Shown: piece after piece, positions 10,619-32,429 of the stretch
How positions within the stretch are numbered: the first letter of the stretch is position 1
How the letters are laid out: every line of letters begins with the position of its first letter
IMG/VR virus record: IMGVR_UViG_3300036804_000353
Span: 1-32,429 of that record
Strand: one strand, 5' to 3'
DNA length: 32,429 bases
DNA from: a virus
Position numbers and translations under genes: made by a program
The notes under the pieces: model-generated
Told to the model about the DNA's origin: nothing
Database searches by the model: none
What the model saw: only the letters and a program-made list of their open reading frames with translations

Positions 10619-11053
10619 TCAGGCGCTGGCGGGTGGCTCTGGCCATTCAATATCAGGCGCAAGTGATGAGTCAACGCGATTAAGCTGAACACGGTATTTT
10701 TTCCATGCCAGCAAGAGTGCGCTTTCTTCATCGGTTGCAATTTCAAGGTCTGCCGCATCCTGAAGTGGTGCAATGGCAGTCGCCGCACTGGTCATCAACT
10801 GTGTTTTTACAGTGTGCACTTTTGCAATAAGTTCCTCCGGTGTTGCAACGTGCTCGGGTCTGTCCTGTAAAATAGGATAGCCATTTTCACCCGGCACAAT
10901 CATTTGACCATTGGTCTGCCCATCCATCAGCGCCCTGTAATCATCATCCTTTACGCGTATGAAGAAGCCAGGCCATGTACCGGCGGCGCGATAAGCCGCT
11001 TCCAACTCATCATTATAAAAACCACCCGTCATTGGCTTATACACAAATCCCAT
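10619..11053 (-). CDS. tfa: Tail fibre assembly chaperone
   Basis: A 144-residue protein with the Tfa signature at its C-terminal half: [20 protein letters not shown] followed by PDIEWPEPP. The middle has [14 protein letters not shown], also typical. Tfa proteins help fold and trimerise the fibre and may stay on its tip. The gene directly follows the fibre gene on the minus strand, as expected, with no base between stop and start. Confidence 0.85.
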
Positions 11054-12163
11054 TTACCAGCCCTCCGCGATATACATTAATGTGACTGTACCGCCACCGG
11101 CGATATGTAAATTAAAACCTGTCTGGTCGACATTATACGGAGTCATTGCTGTGCCACCGCCAGACGCGGAGTTTTGGTTTGCAACTACCGCCGTACATAT
11201 ATTTGGGAAAGCCTGTGGAAACGTAATGCGCGCCCCTTCGCCAACATTGCCAATTGTGGCAGACATACGCATCGCGCCGGTACTGCCACATCGCCACCAC
11301 ATTAACGCACCGTTCCACGCCGCTGTATTTGGATTTGCTTTCGCGTTTACGTCATTTTTTGTAGCGAGGTGAATAAGATTACCTGAGCCTGACGCTCGCA
11401 TGTAAGGGTCATTCTCATTGCTAGAGACGATGCCGACATAACTAATCCAGTCAGCGCGCGGATACCGGGAGTCAAAATTCGTCATGTTTCCCGGAATCAC
11501 TTGCCCTGCAACTGTCACATTACTGTTAATATCCATATATAACGCCGCAGTAGCGCCGTTATCTCCGATAAAATGGAGCATCATGTTGCCGAAATCACTT
11601 TTTCCGCTGCGCAGAATGCCGAGGCTCACCGCGCTACCGAACCCCACAGTTTCAGTCGAAGAAAGCCCCTTGACGATAGGTAAATATACCGAAACATCCT
11701 TCGGGCTTACATAACCGTAAGGGATGCAAAACGGGGCTGCGCTATTATCGTATTGATTTGAAAGTGCTCCGCTGCCGTCCCACGTTCCTGGTTTAATTCT
11801 GTAATGGCTTGAATTGTCTAAATAGGCAACATTGCCACCTGATGTAGGAACAGCGCCAACATCGGTCGCGCTAATGGTAATTTCGCCACTGGCATTCGGA
11901 GACTCACCATTAATGCTCTTGATTGTGCCCAGCACCTGCCATCCGGGCGCGGTCAGTCTGAATGTATCGCCATTGGTGGACACAAAAAAGAGCTTGGGCG
12001 CTGTTGTGGGGAGGTACACTATAAGTGTGCCAGCAACAGAGTCGGGCGCGGTTTCGTTACCAGCGTCAACGGGGTATATTCCCGCAGCGGTGATTGTCTT
12101 GATGTCAGTTGTTGCAGGTAGTGCGCGGCGCATCATTAGCGCCGCATAGAAATCTTCAGGCAT
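11054..12163 (-). CDS. Tail fibre protein
   Basis: A 369-residue host-recognition fibre. It contains INGESPNASGEITISATDVG (a common collar or shaft repeat start), a variable shaft, and the widespread C-terminal head GARITFPQAFPNICTAVVA with a glycine-rich end. It should trimerise and bind host surface sugars. It lies on the strand opposite to the baseplate genes and reads toward them. The start is preceded by GGGGGCTTT, a motif also found before two other genes here. It is only 10 bases downstream of the ERF gene, so the two may be co-transcribed. The N-terminal 100 residues are the attachment part. Confidence 0.8.
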   Translation of the reverse strand: MPEDFYAALMMRRALPATTDIKTITAAGIYPVDAGNETAPDSVAGTLIVYLPTTAPKLFFVSTNGDTFRLTAPGWQVLGTIKSINGESPNASGEITISATDVGAVPTSGGNVAYLDNSSHYRIKPGTWDGSGALSNQYDNSAAPFCIPYGYVSPKDVSVYLPIVKGLSSTETVGFGSAVSLGILRSGKSDFGNMMLHFIGDNGATAALYMDINSNVTVAGQVIPGNMTNFDSRYPRADWISYVGIVSSNENDPYMRASGSGNLIHLATKNDVNAKANPNTAAWNGALMWWRCGSTGAMRMSATIGNVGEGARITFPQAFPNICTAVVANQNSASGGGTAMTPYNVDQTGFNLHIAGGGTVTLMYIAEGW

Positions 12164-12173
12164 AAAGCCCCCG

Positions 12174-13715
12174 TTAAAAGGGTAAATCGTCCTCCGTTAT
12201 TTCAAGACCAGAGGCGGGCGCATCAGGATTAATGAGCCTGGCCAATATTTCATTGATTTCCTCGGCGGCTTGAAAGTCGACGCGTGACAAGACCCGTTTA
12301 ATGAGTGTGACCTTTTCGTCTGTAGTGCCTTCACCGTCAGCAATCTCATTGCATAGCGTCACCTTTGCGCGCATGAGCGTTGCGTGCTCGTCGTTCAGGT
12401 CAACGGCGGGTAGTTTTGCCTCATCAGGGAAAGGCGGTTGCAGGGCGTCACCGTGCTTATACGTGAACCATATGCGGTCAAGTTCTTCCGCTTCTGGCAT
12501 ATCCCCCATCATTTCGCCACGCGCGGCACGCTCTTTGACTTCAGCCACCTTTGCAGCAAGGCGGGCTTGCTCATCGTCTGCTGGTGCATTCAGGCCATTT
12601 GGATCTTCCATGCAAGCTGGCGCGGCAACAGAATCATCCGGGCCGAAATGGCGCTCAATCAATGCGTCTGCTTCTTCATCAGTACCGGTGATGATTTGCG
12701 CGGTGATGAAGCCGTCATATTCCTCGCACGCTTCCAGCCATACGCGCCGCAATGCGCGGGTCTGGTCTTCATCGTCAAAGAAGGTGGCTTCACCGCTGCG
12801 CACCTTGTCAAAAAATTCTTCCTGAAGACGGCGTTGAATTGTGTCGAGTTCGCGCAAATCACCTTTCAGAGGTTGCACGATACGGTTAATGAGGTTGATT
12901 TCGTCAGGGCTTAACGGTGCGTAACGGCGTTCTTGTTCAGCCGCGCGGGCATGTTCTTCAGCAGTGAACGGCACCGCACCCATAGCGACGGCGGCGCGCT
13001 CGGCGGCTTCACCTTCAGCGCCCGGCATTGGCAACCATTGGCGCTGGCTGGTGGTGGCTGGTGACTGTTGCGGTGCGCTACGGCGACGGCTACGACGTGA
13101 CACGCCGTCAAGGTCGCCGCTGTCGTCAGGTTGCAAGCCTAATTCAGCGTACAGGGCATAGCGGCGGCAATAGGTCATTGTGTAGCCCCATTGCTGATGT
13201 TCGTCGAGTTGCTTACCTGAGCGCTTGAGCATCTTTTCAATGTCAGTGCTGGTGGTCGCTAAATGCGCCTCATGCACGGTAGCTGTTGGGATATGGCGGA
13301 AGGTGGTCACGATTTCTTGCACGCCGTCAGCATTGGTGCGCATGGTCTGTGAGTGACGCACGCCCGCCTGATACAACAGCGGTTTAATCACACGGTGCAG
13401 TTCAGGCAGGTCAGACCATGCAAAGTGTTCTTCTTCGCTCCAGCGATTCTTAACCGGATTTTGCGCGGCATGAGACACCCACAATAACGCGGCGTGAACG
13501 TCGGCAAACTGTGAGCCGTTCGTGTTGGCTTCGTGCATAGCAGGTGCGGTGACTGGCGCGGGGGTGACCGTTTCCGGTTTTTCGACTGGATTTGAGGCAG
13601 TATTGATGACCGGGTCTTTATTTTCGCTTTCCGTAGTCATGGGGTCTAATCCATTAAGCAGGGCGCTAACGCCACTTAAGATGACTGATACGTTATGCAG
13701 GGTATGAGTTTGCAT
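12174..13715 (-). CDS. erf: ERF-family single-strand annealing protein with SSB-like C-terminal tip
   Basis: A 513-residue protein, much longer than typical ERF proteins (about 200). Residues about 68-205 hold the ERF core: ADVHAALLWVSHAAQ, then LHRVIKPLLYQAGV, then HQQWGYTMTYCRRYALYAEL and GLQPDDSGDLDG. ERF proteins coat single-stranded DNA and anneal complementary strands in phage recombination. Residues about 210-505 are an acidic, largely unassigned extension. The extreme end ITEDDLPF resembles the SSB C-terminal tip (DDDIPF) that recruits replication and repair partners. AAGGAG sits 8 bases before the ATG at 13715. The leader contains a C4-like RNA that can pair with this ribosome site. 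Confidence 0.75.
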   Translation of the reverse strand: MQTHTLHNVSVILSGVSALLNGLDPMTTESENKDPVINTASNPVEKPETVTPAPVTAPAMHEANTNGSQFADVHAALLWVSHAAQNPVKNRWSEEEHFAWSDLPELHRVIKPLLYQAGVRHSQTMRTNADGVQEIVTTFRHIPTATVHEAHLATTSTDIEKMLKRSGKQLDEHQQWGYTMTYCRRYALYAELGLQPDDSGDLDGVSRRSRRRSAPQQSPATTSQRQWLPMPGAEGEAAERAAVAMGAVPFTAEEHARAAEQERRYAPLSPDEINLINRIVQPLKGDLRELDTIQRRLQEEFFDKVRSGEATFFDDEDQTRALRRVWLEACEEYDGFITAQIITGTDEEADALIERHFGPDDSVAAPACMEDPNGLNAPADDEQARLAAKVAEVKERAARGEMMGDMPEAEELDRIWFTYKHGDALQPPFPDEAKLPAVDLNDEHATLMRAKVTLCNEIADGEGTTDEKVTLIKRVLSRVDFQAAEEINEILARLINPDAPASGLEITEDDLPF

Positions 13716-13743
13716 TGTGCTTGCTCCTTCTTGTGAGACTTAT

Positions 13744-13762
13744 CCCCACTTTTGAGATGGGG
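13744..13762 (-). promoter_or_regulatory. Hairpin between C4-like RNA and ERF ribosome site
   Basis: CCCCA and TGGGG flank an 9-base loop just downstream of the C4-like element on the minus strand and 17 bases before the GGAG ribosome site. It lacks a T-run, so it is a processing or spacing hairpin rather than a terminator. Confidence 0.35.
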
Positions 13763-13763
13763 C

Positions 13764-13844
13764 GGGCTGGAGCTCAAAACCGCAAGAAGTCGGCGGACGT
13801 ATTACGCAGGGTATGCACCCGCGCTATTAGTCGCACTCCAGCCC
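13764..13844 (-). ncRNA. C4-like antisense RNA / structured leader of the ERF gene
   Basis: On the minus strand, GGGCTGGAG (13844-13836) and CTCCAGCCC (13772-13764) form a perfect 9-bp closing stem. Inside are small hairpins: GGGT-GCAT-ACCC, and CCGC-CGACTTCTT-GCGG. The loop CTTCTTG (13789-13783) is exactly complementary to CAAGAAG (13733-13727), which overlaps the ERF ribosome site. GTGCGACT (13836-13829) pairs at 7 of 8 with AGTCTCAC just before it (13740-13733). Two separate pairing segments bracketing a ribosome site downstream in the same transcript is the known layout of C4 RNAs of phages P1 and P7. Family membership is inferred from layout and pairing only. Confidence 0.5.
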
Positions 13845-14007
13845 ATAAATCAGCACTGTGACGGCATGGCCGCCAGAGCATAAAATTTAGGCACAAAAAA
13901 ATCACGCTGACGGGGTGAGTTGCCGCTTCTTGTTAAATGGTGTTTTGAGCACCGGAGACAAAATTACCGCCAATAACTGCAAAAAGCAATGACCACATAC
14001 CGCAAAT

Positions 14008-14023
14008 GAGTAAATATCTACCC
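14008..14023. promoter_or_regulatory. 16-bp palindromic operator, copy 4
   Basis: GAGTAAATATCTACCC, followed by GCA, differs from the consensus only in its left arm. It lies 23 bases before the ATG at 14047, at the head of the packaging and head unit, so bound protein would overlap the promoter or transcript start. Confidence 0.6.
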
Positions 14024-14046
14024 GCACAGATCAAAAGGTGATCAAT

Positions 14047-14370
14047 ATGGTGATTAAGGTAGATTCAAAAGGGTTGGCGAAAGTTGCTAAGTGGGAATTA
14101 CGGCAAATTGCTTGTGATGCGGGTTTTAGGCTGGGCAATGCCGCCGATTACCGGGAAGCAAGGAAGGGTGGGATGCGCTATTACCGCCGCAATTGCATTT
14201 TTGATGAATTATATGGTCACGGGCAGTATGAGGGCATGTTTTACGATGCCAGAGCAGACCCGCCACAAATTCTTATGCCATGCAGGTGCTGTTATGCCGA
14301 GTGGTTGTTTTATTCTGAGGATGTGAAAGAAGCTATCGCCGCCATAAAGCAAAATAAACGTGCGCTATAA
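14047..14370 (+). CDS. Small cysteine-containing protein, unknown
   Basis: A 107-residue protein; the ATG at 14047 lies 8 bases after AAAAGG, and an in-frame GTG at 14038 is less likely. It contains MRYYRRNCIFDELYGHG and MPCRCCYAEWLFY; the CxCC cluster may bind metal. It is the first gene after operator copy 4 and is separated from the terminase genes by a hairpin with a T-run, so it may be made in excess of them. No family is recognised. Confidence 0.55.
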   Translation: MVIKVDSKGLAKVAKWELRQIACDAGFRLGNAADYREARKGGMRYYRRNCIFDELYGHGQYEGMFYDARADPPQILMPCRCCYAEWLFYSEDVKEAIAAIKQNKRAL

Positions 14371-14988: not shown

Positions 14989-16352
14989 GTGGCAACCCGC
15001 CTTTCAGGTTAAAACCGATGCGCGCCATGATGCGTCCGTTATTCGAGTCACATCGCGTCAAGTGTCTTTATGGCGGGCGTGGGTCGGGTAAGTCGTGGGA
15101 TGTGGCAGAGGCGTTGATTGAAATTGCTGTGCGGTCTGAAGTACGCATTTTGTGCTTGCGTCGGGTGCAAAAGTCAATCGCTGCGTCTTCACACCAGTTG
15201 CTTTCCGACACCATCCGCCGGTTGGGGTATGAATCGGAATTTACGATAACTAACAACGCCATCCGCTCAAAAGAGGGGGCGGAATTTATGTTTATGGGTC
15301 TTCAGTCGAACCTTGACAGCGTCAAGTCAATTGAAGGCGTAGACATTTGCTGGGTTGAAGAAGCGCATTCGATTTCCGCCGCCGCATGGGAAATCCTGTT
15401 ACCGACCATCCGCCGTGAATGTTCGGAAATATGGATCACATTCAACCCGGATTATGCGTGGGATGACACATACGTCCGGTTTGTGCTTAACGCGGAAGAT
15501 GACTGGTTTGTTATCGAAGTTAACTGGAGTGACAACGAGCACTTCACGCCAGAGTTAGAAAAAGAGCGCCAGACGTGCCTGAAGTTCTACCCCGACCGCT
15601 ATGACAACATTTGGGAAGGGAAGCCGATTTCAGAAACGCCGGGCGCGGTAGTCAACCGTGGCAACCTTGAACGGCTATTTGTAGATCCAGATTCTGCCCT
15701 TGCGGCGGTCTGCCGTAGCGGGATTAAGCGTGCCGTTCTGGACGTGGCCGACGATGGCGCGGATGACAGCGTTTTAACCCTGTGGGATGGCTATTTCTGT
15801 TACAGGGTGGTGCGCCTTCAAACCCGCGACACTGTGCAGCTTGCCGTACAGGCATTGGCCATAGCCATTGAGGAAGGTTGCGAGGTATTGACGTATGACT
15901 CCGTCGGCGTGGGTGCCGGGGTGCGGGGTGAGCTTAATAAACATGAGGGTGACGGCATCACCTTCAAGAAATTTGTGGCCAACGGGGAAGTCCAGCGCAA
16001 AACGAAGCGCTACCGGGGCGGGCGCAAAAATGAGGAAGTCTTTGCAAATCTCAAGGCGCAATCGTGGTGGGCGTACCGTGACCGGGTTAACGACACATGC
16101 CGCTATCTGGACACAGGCATCAAGCCGCTTGACGGCATGATTGCTTTTTCCAGCAAGATTGAGCGCCGTTACCGTGAGCGCATTTTATCGGATTCAACCG
16201 GGGTGCGATGGGAAAGCAACAAAGACGACAAGATTCAGATTGAGGACAAAAAATCGGTCAAGAAACGTTTGGGTGTTTCGACGGACTACGCCGACGCAAT
16301 CATCCCGCACGCTATCAAGTTCAAATCAGGATTAGACGCATATGACGAGTAA
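14985..16352 (+). CDS. terL: Terminase large subunit
   Basis: A 455-residue packaging motor of the PBSX/Terminase_3 type. The ATPase has Walker A GGRGSGKS at 30-37 and Walker B VDICWVEEAH at 119-128 with the catalytic glutamate. Coupling motif TFNP is at about 152-155. The nuclease half has acidic residues Asp253 (VLDVADDG), Asp305 (YDSVGVGAG) and Asp434/437 (STDYADA). All key residues are present, so the enzyme looks functional. It cuts concatemers and drives DNA into the prohead through the portal encoded next; the two genes overlap by 11 bases. Confidence 0.9.
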   Translation: MSGNPPFRLKPMRAMMRPLFESHRVKCLYGGRGSGKSWDVAEALIEIAVRSEVRILCLRRVQKSIAASSHQLLSDTIRRLGYESEFTITNNAIRSKEGAEFMFMGLQSNLDSVKSIEGVDICWVEEAHSISAAAWEILLPTIRRECSEIWITFNPDYAWDDTYVRFVLNAEDDWFVIEVNWSDNEHFTPELEKERQTCLKFYPDRYDNIWEGKPISETPGAVVNRGNLERLFVDPDSALAAVCRSGIKRAVLDVADDGADDSVLTLWDGYFCYRVVRLQTRDTVQLAVQALAIAIEEGCEVLTYDSVGVGAGVRGELNKHEGDGITFKKFVANGEVQRKTKRYRGGRKNEEVFANLKAQSWWAYRDRVNDTCRYLDTGIKPLDGMIAFSSKIERRYRERILSDSTGVRWESNKDDKIQIEDKKSVKKRLGVSTDYADAIIPHAIKFKSGLDAYDE

Positions 16353-17679
16353 GAAAATACCCACACAAGGCACGCTCATTGGTGGTGAGGTGCGGGAAGA
16401 CATCAACAATGACAGCTATGTAAGCATGATGCAGGGAGTGGCCGGGTTAGGCGGCGTCAATGGAATTGGTGCGCGCGGTGCGGCGGGTATGACGTCACCA
16501 ACAGCCCGCCGAATGATGGCGCGCATAGCGTCGGGCATGATTCCCATTAATGCGATGTTGCTCAATGAACAAAGCGGCGTTGGCCACCGTATTTGCGCCG
16601 AACCCGTGCGCGCGGCCATGAATGCGGGTTACTCGATTGTGACCCAAAACCCCGCAGACAAAGAAGCCATTGAAAACCTGTTTGAAGACCTGAACGTCTG
16701 GCGCGTGGTCGGCAATGCCGCCGTCTACCGTCGGGCCGCTGGCTGGTCGGTCATCGTGTTTGGTGATGCTTTTGTACGCCCGCACCCGGCTTACCGCATT
16801 ACGCCATCTAACGACTGGTATACAGATTACCGGTCACCACTGTTCGGCTTGCCTGAAGGCTGGCAAATCGAGTTAAAAGCGCCCATCGGCGGGGATGTGT
16901 TTATCCCGCAGCAGGACAGCTTTTTGATGGGTGATAAAGACTACGACCCGATTTATCAAATCACCGGCACGGAATTTGGCACGCCGGTATTGGGTCGCGT
17001 TTATTCATCACTGGAGCGCCTCGGTCTGACCCATGAGCTTATTTTATCAATTCTTTCAATGAGCATTCAGGACATCTATAAGCGCCAAAACCTTGATGAA
17101 GAACTTGAAACGCAAAAAGGAGAAAGGAAGGTTGCCAGTCGCATTGGCGGCATTGCTGCAACGCGCATGCTAAATGACATGGTGGTCATTGACGGCGAGG
17201 AAGCTATTGAGCGACTTCAGTCAACCATAGCCAATCAGGCCGACCTTATTGACGCAGCCATCCGCATTGTGTCGCTGGAATCTGGCGTTCCCGTGTCCGT
17301 TCTGGCCAACACAAAAGCGGGGTTAAGTAACAGCGATAGCAGCGGGGATGACGTGTGGGCGCGTCTGGTCGATACCGAAAACACTGACTACATCATCCCG
17401 GCACTGAAGGCGATAGCGCTCAATTTTCTTGGTGTTCGTGCTGACTTCGTGGCGAACAAGTCGCAGGGTGACATCAAGCGTGATGCAGACACCGACAAAG
17501 TGAAGGCGGAAACCGTCAAGCTGTACTACGACATGCGCGCCATTACATCAGAAGAAGTGCGCGCCACCGGGCAGGAAAGCGCCGCCTTTGTCAGCCTGAC
17601 AACCAATCTGCCGGGTAAAACAACCAACGACCCGGAAGCTGACGAGGTTGACGACGATGAAAACGACGCCACGCTATAA
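16342..17679 (+). CDS. Portal protein (DUF1073 type)
   Basis: A 445-residue portal. AAVYRRAAGWSVIVFGDAF, then YSSLERLGLTHELILSILSM, then IRIVSLESGVPVSVLANTKAG, and the S-N-S-D-S-S-G-D-D-V-W-x-R block are typical of DUF1073 portals. Twelve copies form the ring at the capsid vertex that the terminase docks to. Pfam now names this family after Acb1 because of fused relatives; the H-x-T/H-x-S phosphodiesterase motifs of Acb1 are absent here. The acidic tail (EADEVDDDEND) overlaps the next gene by 23 bases. Confidence 0.85.
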   Translation: MTSKKIPTQGTLIGGEVREDINNDSYVSMMQGVAGLGGVNGIGARGAAGMTSPTARRMMARIASGMIPINAMLLNEQSGVGHRICAEPVRAAMNAGYSIVTQNPADKEAIENLFEDLNVWRVVGNAAVYRRAAGWSVIVFGDAFVRPHPAYRITPSNDWYTDYRSPLFGLPEGWQIELKAPIGGDVFIPQQDSFLMGDKDYDPIYQITGTEFGTPVLGRVYSSLERLGLTHELILSILSMSIQDIYKRQNLDEELETQKGERKVASRIGGIAATRMLNDMVVIDGEEAIERLQSTIANQADLIDAAIRIVSLESGVPVSVLANTKAGLSNSDSSGDDVWARLVDTENTDYIIPALKAIALNFLGVRADFVANKSQGDIKRDADTDKVKAETVKLYYDMRAITSEEVRATGQESAAFVSLTTNLPGKTTNDPEADEVDDDENDATL

Positions 17680-31654: not shown

Positions 31655-31686
31655 TTTATTATGTGAATGCACATCAAGGGGGCTTT

Positions 31687-31992
31687 ATGGCCAGCATTGA
31701 AACTGATGAAGCAACAATCAGTTACTTAAAGGAAGACCCGCAAGCAAGGCTTGCAATCATAAATGAGGTATACCGGCTAATAAGCGATGGTGATGTCGAT
31801 GTCGCCAAAACCACATTGCGCATGGTTATCAATATGACCTGTGGATTTCGAGCCATTTCTGATGAAGTTGGCAGACATCCAAAATCCATCATGCGCATGT
31901 TGACCCCGGATGTAGATCCAGGCATCAAGGCGTTTATGTCAGTGGTCAATGCCACAAAGCGCCAGATAACGAGCGCCGCAAAGGAGGCATAA
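31687..31992 (+). CDS. HTH antitoxin-like DNA-binding protein
   Basis: A 101-residue protein starting at the ATG at 31687 after AAGGGGGCTTT. The C-terminal part CGFRAISDEVGRHPKSIMRM, then LTPDVDPGIKAFMSVVNA, follows the helix-turn-helix pattern of HigA-2-like antitoxins (G-x-x-x-I-x-x-x-x-G, S-I-x-R-x-L, P-x-I/L-x-x-x-x-x-V). The N-terminal half is helical. The next gene, a DUF29 protein, follows after 2 bases, so the two form an operon behind a palindromic operator. A toxin-antitoxin unit is possible but no known toxin is present. Confidence 0.65.
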   Translation: MASIETDEATISYLKEDPQARLAIINEVYRLISDGDVDVAKTTLRMVINMTCGFRAISDEVGRHPKSIMRMLTPDVDPGIKAFMSVVNATKRQITSAAKEA

Positions 31993-31994
31993 AA

Positions 31995-32429
31995 ATGCAG
32001 AGCAATTTACATGAAACCGATTTTTACGGGTGGACGCAGCAACAGGCCGAACTGTTAAGAAAAGGGAAACTCACTGAGGTGGATGTGATGAATTTAATCG
32101 AGGAAATCGAGGACATGGGCGGCAGCGAAAAAAGGGAACTTGAATCACGTCTTGGCGTGTTGTTTATGCATTTGCTCAAGTGGCGTTATCAGCCCACACA
32201 CCGTGGCCATTCATGGCGTCTGACCATTGCAGAGCAGCGCAGCAAGATTGCGCGCCGCTTGAGGAAATCGCCGTCACTCAAGTCTTCACTGGAAGAAATC
32301 GCCGCTGACGCTTACAGCGATTCACGTTATGGCGCATCGCGTGAAACCGGTCAGGTGCTGGAAGTGTTCCCGGATGATTGTCCGTGGACGCTCGCACAGG
32401 TGCTGGATGTTGACTATTTGCCAGACTAA
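31995..32429 (+). CDS. DUF29 family protein
   Basis: A 144-residue protein of complete length with AAGGAGG at 31981-31987 before its ATG. HETDFYGWTQQQAELLRKGK, then NLIEEIEDMGGSEKRELESR, then LKWRYQPTHRGHSWRLTIAE and DCPWTLAQVLDVDYLPD at the end follow the whole DUF29 pattern (D-x-x-x-W, L-x-E-E-I-E-x-x-G, L-L-x-H-L-L-K-W, W). The function of DUF29 is not known. Here it is in one operon with an antitoxin-like HTH protein. The window ends at its stop. Confidence 0.8.
   Translation: MQSNLHETDFYGWTQQQAELLRKGKLTEVDVMNLIEEIEDMGGSEKRELESRLGVLFMHLLKWRYQPTHRGHSWRLTIAEQRSKIARRLRKSPSLKSSLEEIAADAYSDSRYGASRETGQVLEVFPDDCPWTLAQVLDVDYLPD

Follow-up and report, generated by a model that had tools for sequence, protein, structure and literature searches.

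A small structured RNA in the leader of a phage recombination gene very probably works like the C4 RNA of phage P1, silencing the gene behind it. The proposal comes from comparing the sequence of a viral stretch of 32,429 nucleotides (IMG/VR virus record IMGVR_UViG_3300036804_000353, positions 1 to 32,429; the window) with that of related loci. Genes of the window encode a terminase, portal, capsid, tape measure, lysis functions and an integrase-like protein. Hence, the window is probably a temperate phage. The first-pass annotation, made from the letters of the window alone, had placed a recombination protein and a downstream tail fibre behind the leader. Indeed, an ERF domain is followed by fibre genes on the same strand, and the tail-fibre gene is probably in the same operon as ERF. 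Coordinates are collected in Table 1.

Table 1. Elements of the ERF leader and genes of the operon, in transcript order (window coordinates)
Feature	Position	Strand	Basis or remark
Candidate sigma-70 promoter: TTGCTT (13989-13984), 17 nt, TAATTT (13966-13961)	13961-13989	minus	6/12 consensus
a1 hairpin GGTG-CTCAAAA-CACC; loop 13949-13943 complementary to a'	13939-13953	minus	Sequence; 0 expected in shuffles
b1, CAAGAAG, upstream site complementary to b'	13926-13932	minus	Sequence; own-b1 match in 34/35 loop types
Terminator-like hairpin TCAC...GTGA, then T7	13895-13918	minus	4-bp stem, weak in the window; terminator function putative
C4-like / sRNA-Xcc1-like antisense RNA, ~81 nt	13764-13844	minus	Closing stem P1, with P2 and P3
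P1 closing stem	13844-13835 paired with 13773-13764	minus	Covarying stems in relatives
b', P3 loop CTTCTTG, variable specificity segment	13783-13789	minus	119/119 cells paired with b2
a', linker TTTTGAG between P3 and closing stem	13773-13779	minus	Complementary to CTCAAAA of the a1 and a2 hairpins
a2 hairpin CCCCA-TCTCAAAAG-TGGGG; CTCAAAA 13756-13750 in loop	13744-13762	minus	Sequence; folds in leader prediction
b2, CAAGAAG, overlapping Shine-Dalgarno AAGGAG (13729-13724)	13727-13733	minus	Own-b2 match in 32/35 loop types
ERF-family ssDNA-annealing protein, 513 aa, controlled gene	12174-13715	minus	PF04404, E = 2.4e-9; phrog_2324, phrog_155
Tail-fibre gene, 10 nt downstream of ERF	11054-12163	minus	Same strand; order ERF-Ref-fibre-tfa in L004
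Tail-fibre assembly protein, directly adjacent to tail-fibre gene	10619-11053	minus	PF02413, E = 1.5e-34

The minus-strand leader from 13844 to 13764 is predicted to fold into a perfect 9-bp closing stem, extended by one U.G pair, with two inner hairpins. Apart from the extra U.G pair, this is the fold that the first-pass annotation had described. The predicted energy of -37.6 kcal/mol (z = -2.95) was equalled by 2 of 200 shuffles. In the resulting three-stem architecture, b' forms the P3 loop and a' the 3' linker. The two segments occupy the same positions in the C4 RNA of an E. coli prophage (L005). Changes on both sides were found for 12 of 21 predicted pairs in an alignment of relatives with no ERF link, and for 6 of 26 in the ERF alignment. 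We conclude that the leader RNA is real. Its closing stem starts with GG, which may be compatible with a 5' end made by RNase P.

One claim made for the window was that the loop CTTCTTG is an exact complement of CAAGAAG at the ERF ribosome site. This holds. Covariation of loop and ribosome site in relatives, which had been suggested as a check, is clear. Across an alignment of 17 ERF leaders, b' is paired with b2 in 119 of 119 cells, and both sides have changed in 5 of the 7 pairs. The covariation score is 0.708, compared to 0.202 when shuffled and at most 0.108 when the segments are slid. The match is far above chance because of this covariation. The ribosome site is one of two targets; a third copy of the segment, b1 (13932-13926), lies upstream and had been missed. 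Directly after b1 is CGGC, so pairing could extend to the 5' arm of P3.

Peptide patterns applied to viral contigs, with tblastn confirmation, identified no relatives of the window ERF protein. Relatives were obtained instead with a leader pattern, GTGCTCAAAACACN{140,170}TTTTGAGC, which fixes the a1 hairpin and the linker only and has an expectation of 0 in shuffles of the window. The pattern matched 32 viral and 20 genome stretches; the plasmid collection gave no match. With chance matches L039 and L056 left out, 49 loci and 35 distinct loop windows were kept. An exact complement of at least 7 nt was present in the locus's own b1 for 34 of the 35 loop types and in its own b2 for 32. Sites of other loci were matched over at least 7 nt in 1.7% (b1) and 3.1% (b2) of cases. 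The summed matches to own b1 and b2 were reached by none of 10,000 permutations. Leaders that are more than 90% identical (L003 and L008; the window and L014) have different loops, and both target sites have changed to match. L003 (E. coli CX12) has the loop CTTCTTG of the window, and the L014 type is CTGTTTG. The b segment also covaries with both sites in two independent sets of relatives found by RNA model only (28 and 46 loci; 0 of 5000 permutations each).

The second pairing segment differs from that first proposed. The original suggestion was GTGCGACT with AGTCTCAC, which pair at 7 of 8 positions in the window. In 17 relatives, 78.7% of cells were paired compared to 78.2% after shuffling, and no covariation was detected in the 17 ERF leaders. 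In two wider sets, the stretch holding GTGCGACT matched the downstream site with own means of 4.39 and 4.61, against 4.40 and 4.62 when permuted. With neither covariation in the ERF leaders nor an excess in the wider relatives, this candidate was rejected. On sequence evidence, the true second segment is the linker TTTTGAG, pairing with the CTCAAAA hairpin loops at both sites (13949-13943 and 13756-13750). Both hairpins had escaped the first reading. Linker and CTCAAAA are constant across the ERF leaders. Hence, that group gives no proof of pairing. Relatives found by RNA model only have linker variants (TTTTGAG, GTTTCTAG, GTTGTCAA, GGTAATCA and others). The linker of a locus fits the upstream and the downstream site of that locus in both sets (28 and 46 loci); in each set, none of 5000 permutations did as well in any of the four tests of the a and b segments against the two sites.

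Duplex energies were considered as a test of specificity. At site 2, cognate pairs averaged -16.3 and non-cognate pairs -14.6 kcal/mol, with overlapping ranges; the energies barely separate the two classes because the constant a segment dominates. The test was set aside. Four loci (L015, L018, L029 and L030) have a variant arrangement. In these, CTCAAAAAGG sets a2 on the Shine-Dalgarno sequence, and b2 (e.g. ATACTGTAATG) lies over the start codon.

A generic promoter scan of the window found no minus-strand promoter. However, in 37 of 49 related loci a promoter-like pair with at least 8 of 12 consensus positions occurs at the same place as the candidate in Table 1, compared to 9% of control positions. 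Transcription is expected to begin with the GG that opens the a1 hairpin, or close to it. A T-run of 5 or more follows b1 in 42 of the 49 loci. Termination there would yield a short a1b1 leader RNA. Promoter and terminator of the window are both weaker than the average of the 49 loci, and weak by consensus.

We propose that a promoter at about 13985 drives a single minus-strand transcript through the leader into the ERF operon. The transcript would carry, in order, the a1 hairpin, b1, the weak terminator, the 81-nt RNA, the a2 hairpin, b2 over the Shine-Dalgarno sequence and the ERF operon. The RNA would be cut out of this transcript, a step that related RNAs seem to undergo. Pairing of b' (CTTCTTG) and a' (TTTTGAG) with b2 and a2 would then block ribosome entry on the ERF mRNA. 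Both excision and the block are proposed by analogy with C4, IsrK and P4 CI (PMC5320573, PMC4825925). Expression of the fibre genes would also fall, probably by coupling. Pairing with a1 and b1 would most likely promote early termination. The RNA would act both in cis and in trans. In a lysogen, it would keep the operon silent and would also silence phages of its own loop type that enter the cell. We consider it highly likely that the model holds as a whole, with a leader antisense RNA repressing the ERF operon by C4 logic in cis and in trans.

A leader switch acting only in cis would give identical covariation. Here, pairing of b1 with b' would free the ribosome site, pairing of b' with b2 would close it, and no separate trans-acting RNA would exist. 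All three segments do lie within one transcript, and alternative structures of this kind are described for the isrK-orf45-anrP mRNA of Gifsy-1 (PMC4825925). However, some relatives of the Rfam family RF02221 (sRNA-Xcc1), to which we compare the window RNA below, are known to exist as discrete RNAs of 88-89 nt. RACE mapped sRNA-Xcc1 as a discrete 88-nt RNA (PMC2996969). In E. coli O157:H7 EDL933, an 89-nt RF02221 RNA accounted for 40,293 reads with a ribosomal coverage value of 0.02, and is almost untranslated (PMC5331693). The self-contained closing stem and conserved P2 also resemble a stable processed RNA, and in IsrK the short RNA acts in trans. We regard a switch confined to cis as unlikely, and favour an RNA that acts on both its own and other transcripts.

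The favoured model closely resembles C4 of P1/P7 (RF01695) with its a1b1 element. Both have three stems, a P3 loop that carries b', a linker that carries a', target sites up- and downstream, b2 at the ribosome site and a single transcript. The window RNA differs in belonging to a separate sequence-structure family and in its target, which is ERF here and an antirepressor operon in P1/P7. The hypervariable segment is b' here, whereas a' is reported to vary in P1/P7-type C4 (PMC5320573). In the isrK-orf45-anrP locus of Gifsy-1, an upstream element and terminator give a short leader RNA before an antirepressor gene (PMC4825925). However, it is true C4 loci that have isrK as their leader element, L005 among them. 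The isrK model (RF01394) gave no hit in the window at the cut-offs of Rfam, and none in 13500-14100 in a search up to E = 5. Comparable in layout is the CI RNA of P4, a processed immunity RNA that pairs up- and downstream in its own transcript, at seqA and seqC (PMC4825925). It differs in acting by premature termination on replication genes. Most loci here have a terminator-like hairpin behind b1, where upstream pairing may cause premature termination as with P4 CI RNA.

These similarities raise the question of whether the leader RNA is a true C4. The C4 locus of L005 has the identical order of parts (a1, b1, C4, a2 and b2 over the Shine-Dalgarno sequence); there, too, the P3 loop holds b' and the 3' linker holds a'. 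However, the RF01695 covariance model, named at the outset as a check, had no hit in 13500-14100 when searched up to E = 5 and none at the gathering cut-off in the whole window. By comparison, RF02221 scored the window RNA at 33.4 bits (E = 5e-4), which is under the curated cut-off of 53 bits. Relatives L002 and L005 scored 79 bits and ERF-type relatives 36-40 bits. We built a covariance model, R1, from 22 RNAs with no ERF link, L002 and L005 included. With R1, the RNA of the window scores 51.6 bits (E = 1.3e-9), and the true C4 in L005 goes undetected at E values up to 10. The structure of P2 also differs. In the RF02221-type family this stem has a UAAUACAA...GGGAAUA internal loop, whereas C4 has a simple tetraloop hairpin. 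Since R1 finds the window RNA and misses the L005 C4, the window RNA is of RF02221 descent and is set apart from RF01695 by sequence and structure. Membership of RF01695 fails at the sequence-structure level and is very improbable.

As judged by sequence, then, the window RNA is a divergent relative of RF02221 by descent, although under the curated cut-off, and is not a member of the C4 family. It shares with sRNA-Xcc1 a homologous fold and sequence, and relatives with the same a1b1, RNA and a2b2 layout; it differs in its sub-cut-off score and in its P2. Common descent of the two families is possible. Of the original claim of C4-like, two-segment pairing within one ERF transcript, the architecture and mode of action stand, while C4 membership and the second segment do not. 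Two outcomes had been named in advance as refuting the idea, a missing C4 model hit and missing covariation of the pairing segments. The first was obtained, since RF01695 is unmatched; the second was not, since loop and ribosome site covary overwhelmingly. We therefore call the RNA C4-like, yet outside the C4 family. That covariation also refutes in practice, and leaves a negligible probability for, a non-regulatory origin by chance complementarity or as a structured DNA element that serves as operator or in packaging: 7-nt matches in a single genome are modest evidence alone, but inverted complementarity is preserved over ~35 loop types at three places (two direct copies, one inverted) and b2 adjoins the start codon.

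An ERF target had been called unusual. It is indeed not an antirepressor, but it is recurrent, with ERF at ~19 of 49 loci. ERF follows b2 in the window, in L003 and L004, and in ~16 further loci. BLAST had identified L003 and L004, which represent two types of E. coli prophage that carry ERF and a Ref nuclease. The other BLAST relatives are L002, an Acinetobacter phage with the RNA ahead of a KilA-N gene, and L005, an E. coli prophage with RNA copies ahead of ORF6N genes. In many loci the gene after b2 is antirepressor-type (KilA-N, ORF6N, AntA, Rha or Bro-N). Other loci have a SymE-family toxin (8 checked loci) or a small ORF of unknown kind. SymE lies directly behind an RF02221-like RNA in L049, L062, L069, L071, L083, L086, L093 and L099, most with the same a/b target layout. 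We conclude that ERF is a real and recurrent variation, and that most other relatives probably control antirepressor-type genes. C4-type control would act here on a recombination operon (ERF and tail fibre, with Ref in the E. coli relatives) rather than an antirepressor. At least one RNA copy occurs in 30 of 398 sampled Pseudomonadota genomes.

Earlier work presents sRNA-Xcc1 as a trans-acting sRNA carried by integrons, with no known target (PMC2996969, PMC12444791). The most widespread Xanthomonas integron cassette combines symE with sRNA-Xcc1, and its authors left regulation open (PMC12444791). In Xylella, RF02221 matches were reported near C4 and isrK matches, and a functional link was not drawn (PMC12189769). 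In the literature searched, with subscription journals mostly outside it, we found no work tying RF02221 to C4-type control; an earlier description is possible. Distinctive here are the hypervariable b' code and the ERF operon as target. By analogy, the pairing rule is a candidate explanation for the position of sRNA-Xcc1 upstream of symE in cassettes. This formerly target-less family thereby gains a likely job and a testable mechanism. The rule itself (b' with b1 and b2, a' with a1 and a2) predicts target and cross-immunity from sequence.

We lean, by a modest degree, towards a broader interpretation. RF02221-type RNAs would be antisense switches of C4 logic throughout the Pseudomonadota, with a hypervariable two-segment code, in a module found ahead of antirepressors, ERF recombination and fibre operons, and SymE toxins. 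If so, the promoter, a1b1, RNA and a2b2 form one module placed before different genes that are dangerous when on. The Xanthomonas sRNA-Xcc1 and symE cassette would be a toxin module under antisense control, with its origin in phage immunity. Solitary RNA copies would provide immunity against phages with a matching loop type.

Several genomes contain multiple copies. Genome G145 has four RNA copies, among SymE-linked loci. Genome G429 has eight RF02221-like copies, including two pairs (L103/L104 and L105/L106) ~285 nt apart on one strand. One copy of each pair is without a clear match on either side. These pairs may be tandem arrays of specificities, comparable to the sXF1-5 cluster in Xylella (PMC12189769). 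In L005 (3035-4761), two RNAs of identical sequence lie 930 nt from each other, and behind each is an ORF6N gene. The pair adjoins the true C4 and isrK locus ahead of Rha, which brings two C4-logic systems together. In L003 (5068-5362) and L004 (5616-5910), the opposite strand carries a Hok/Gef gene and a match to the sok antitoxin RNA immediately upstream of the ERF leader. Within the window, 16342-17679 (plus strand) encodes a protein that matches a portal family (PF06381). For the protein at this location in E. coli relatives, RefSeq gives the name anti-CBASS Acb1 family, which may be misleading. Finally, an isrF (RF01389) match above the cut-off (77.1 bits) at 31759-32025 (plus strand) overlaps predicted ORFs 31663-31992 and 31995-32429.
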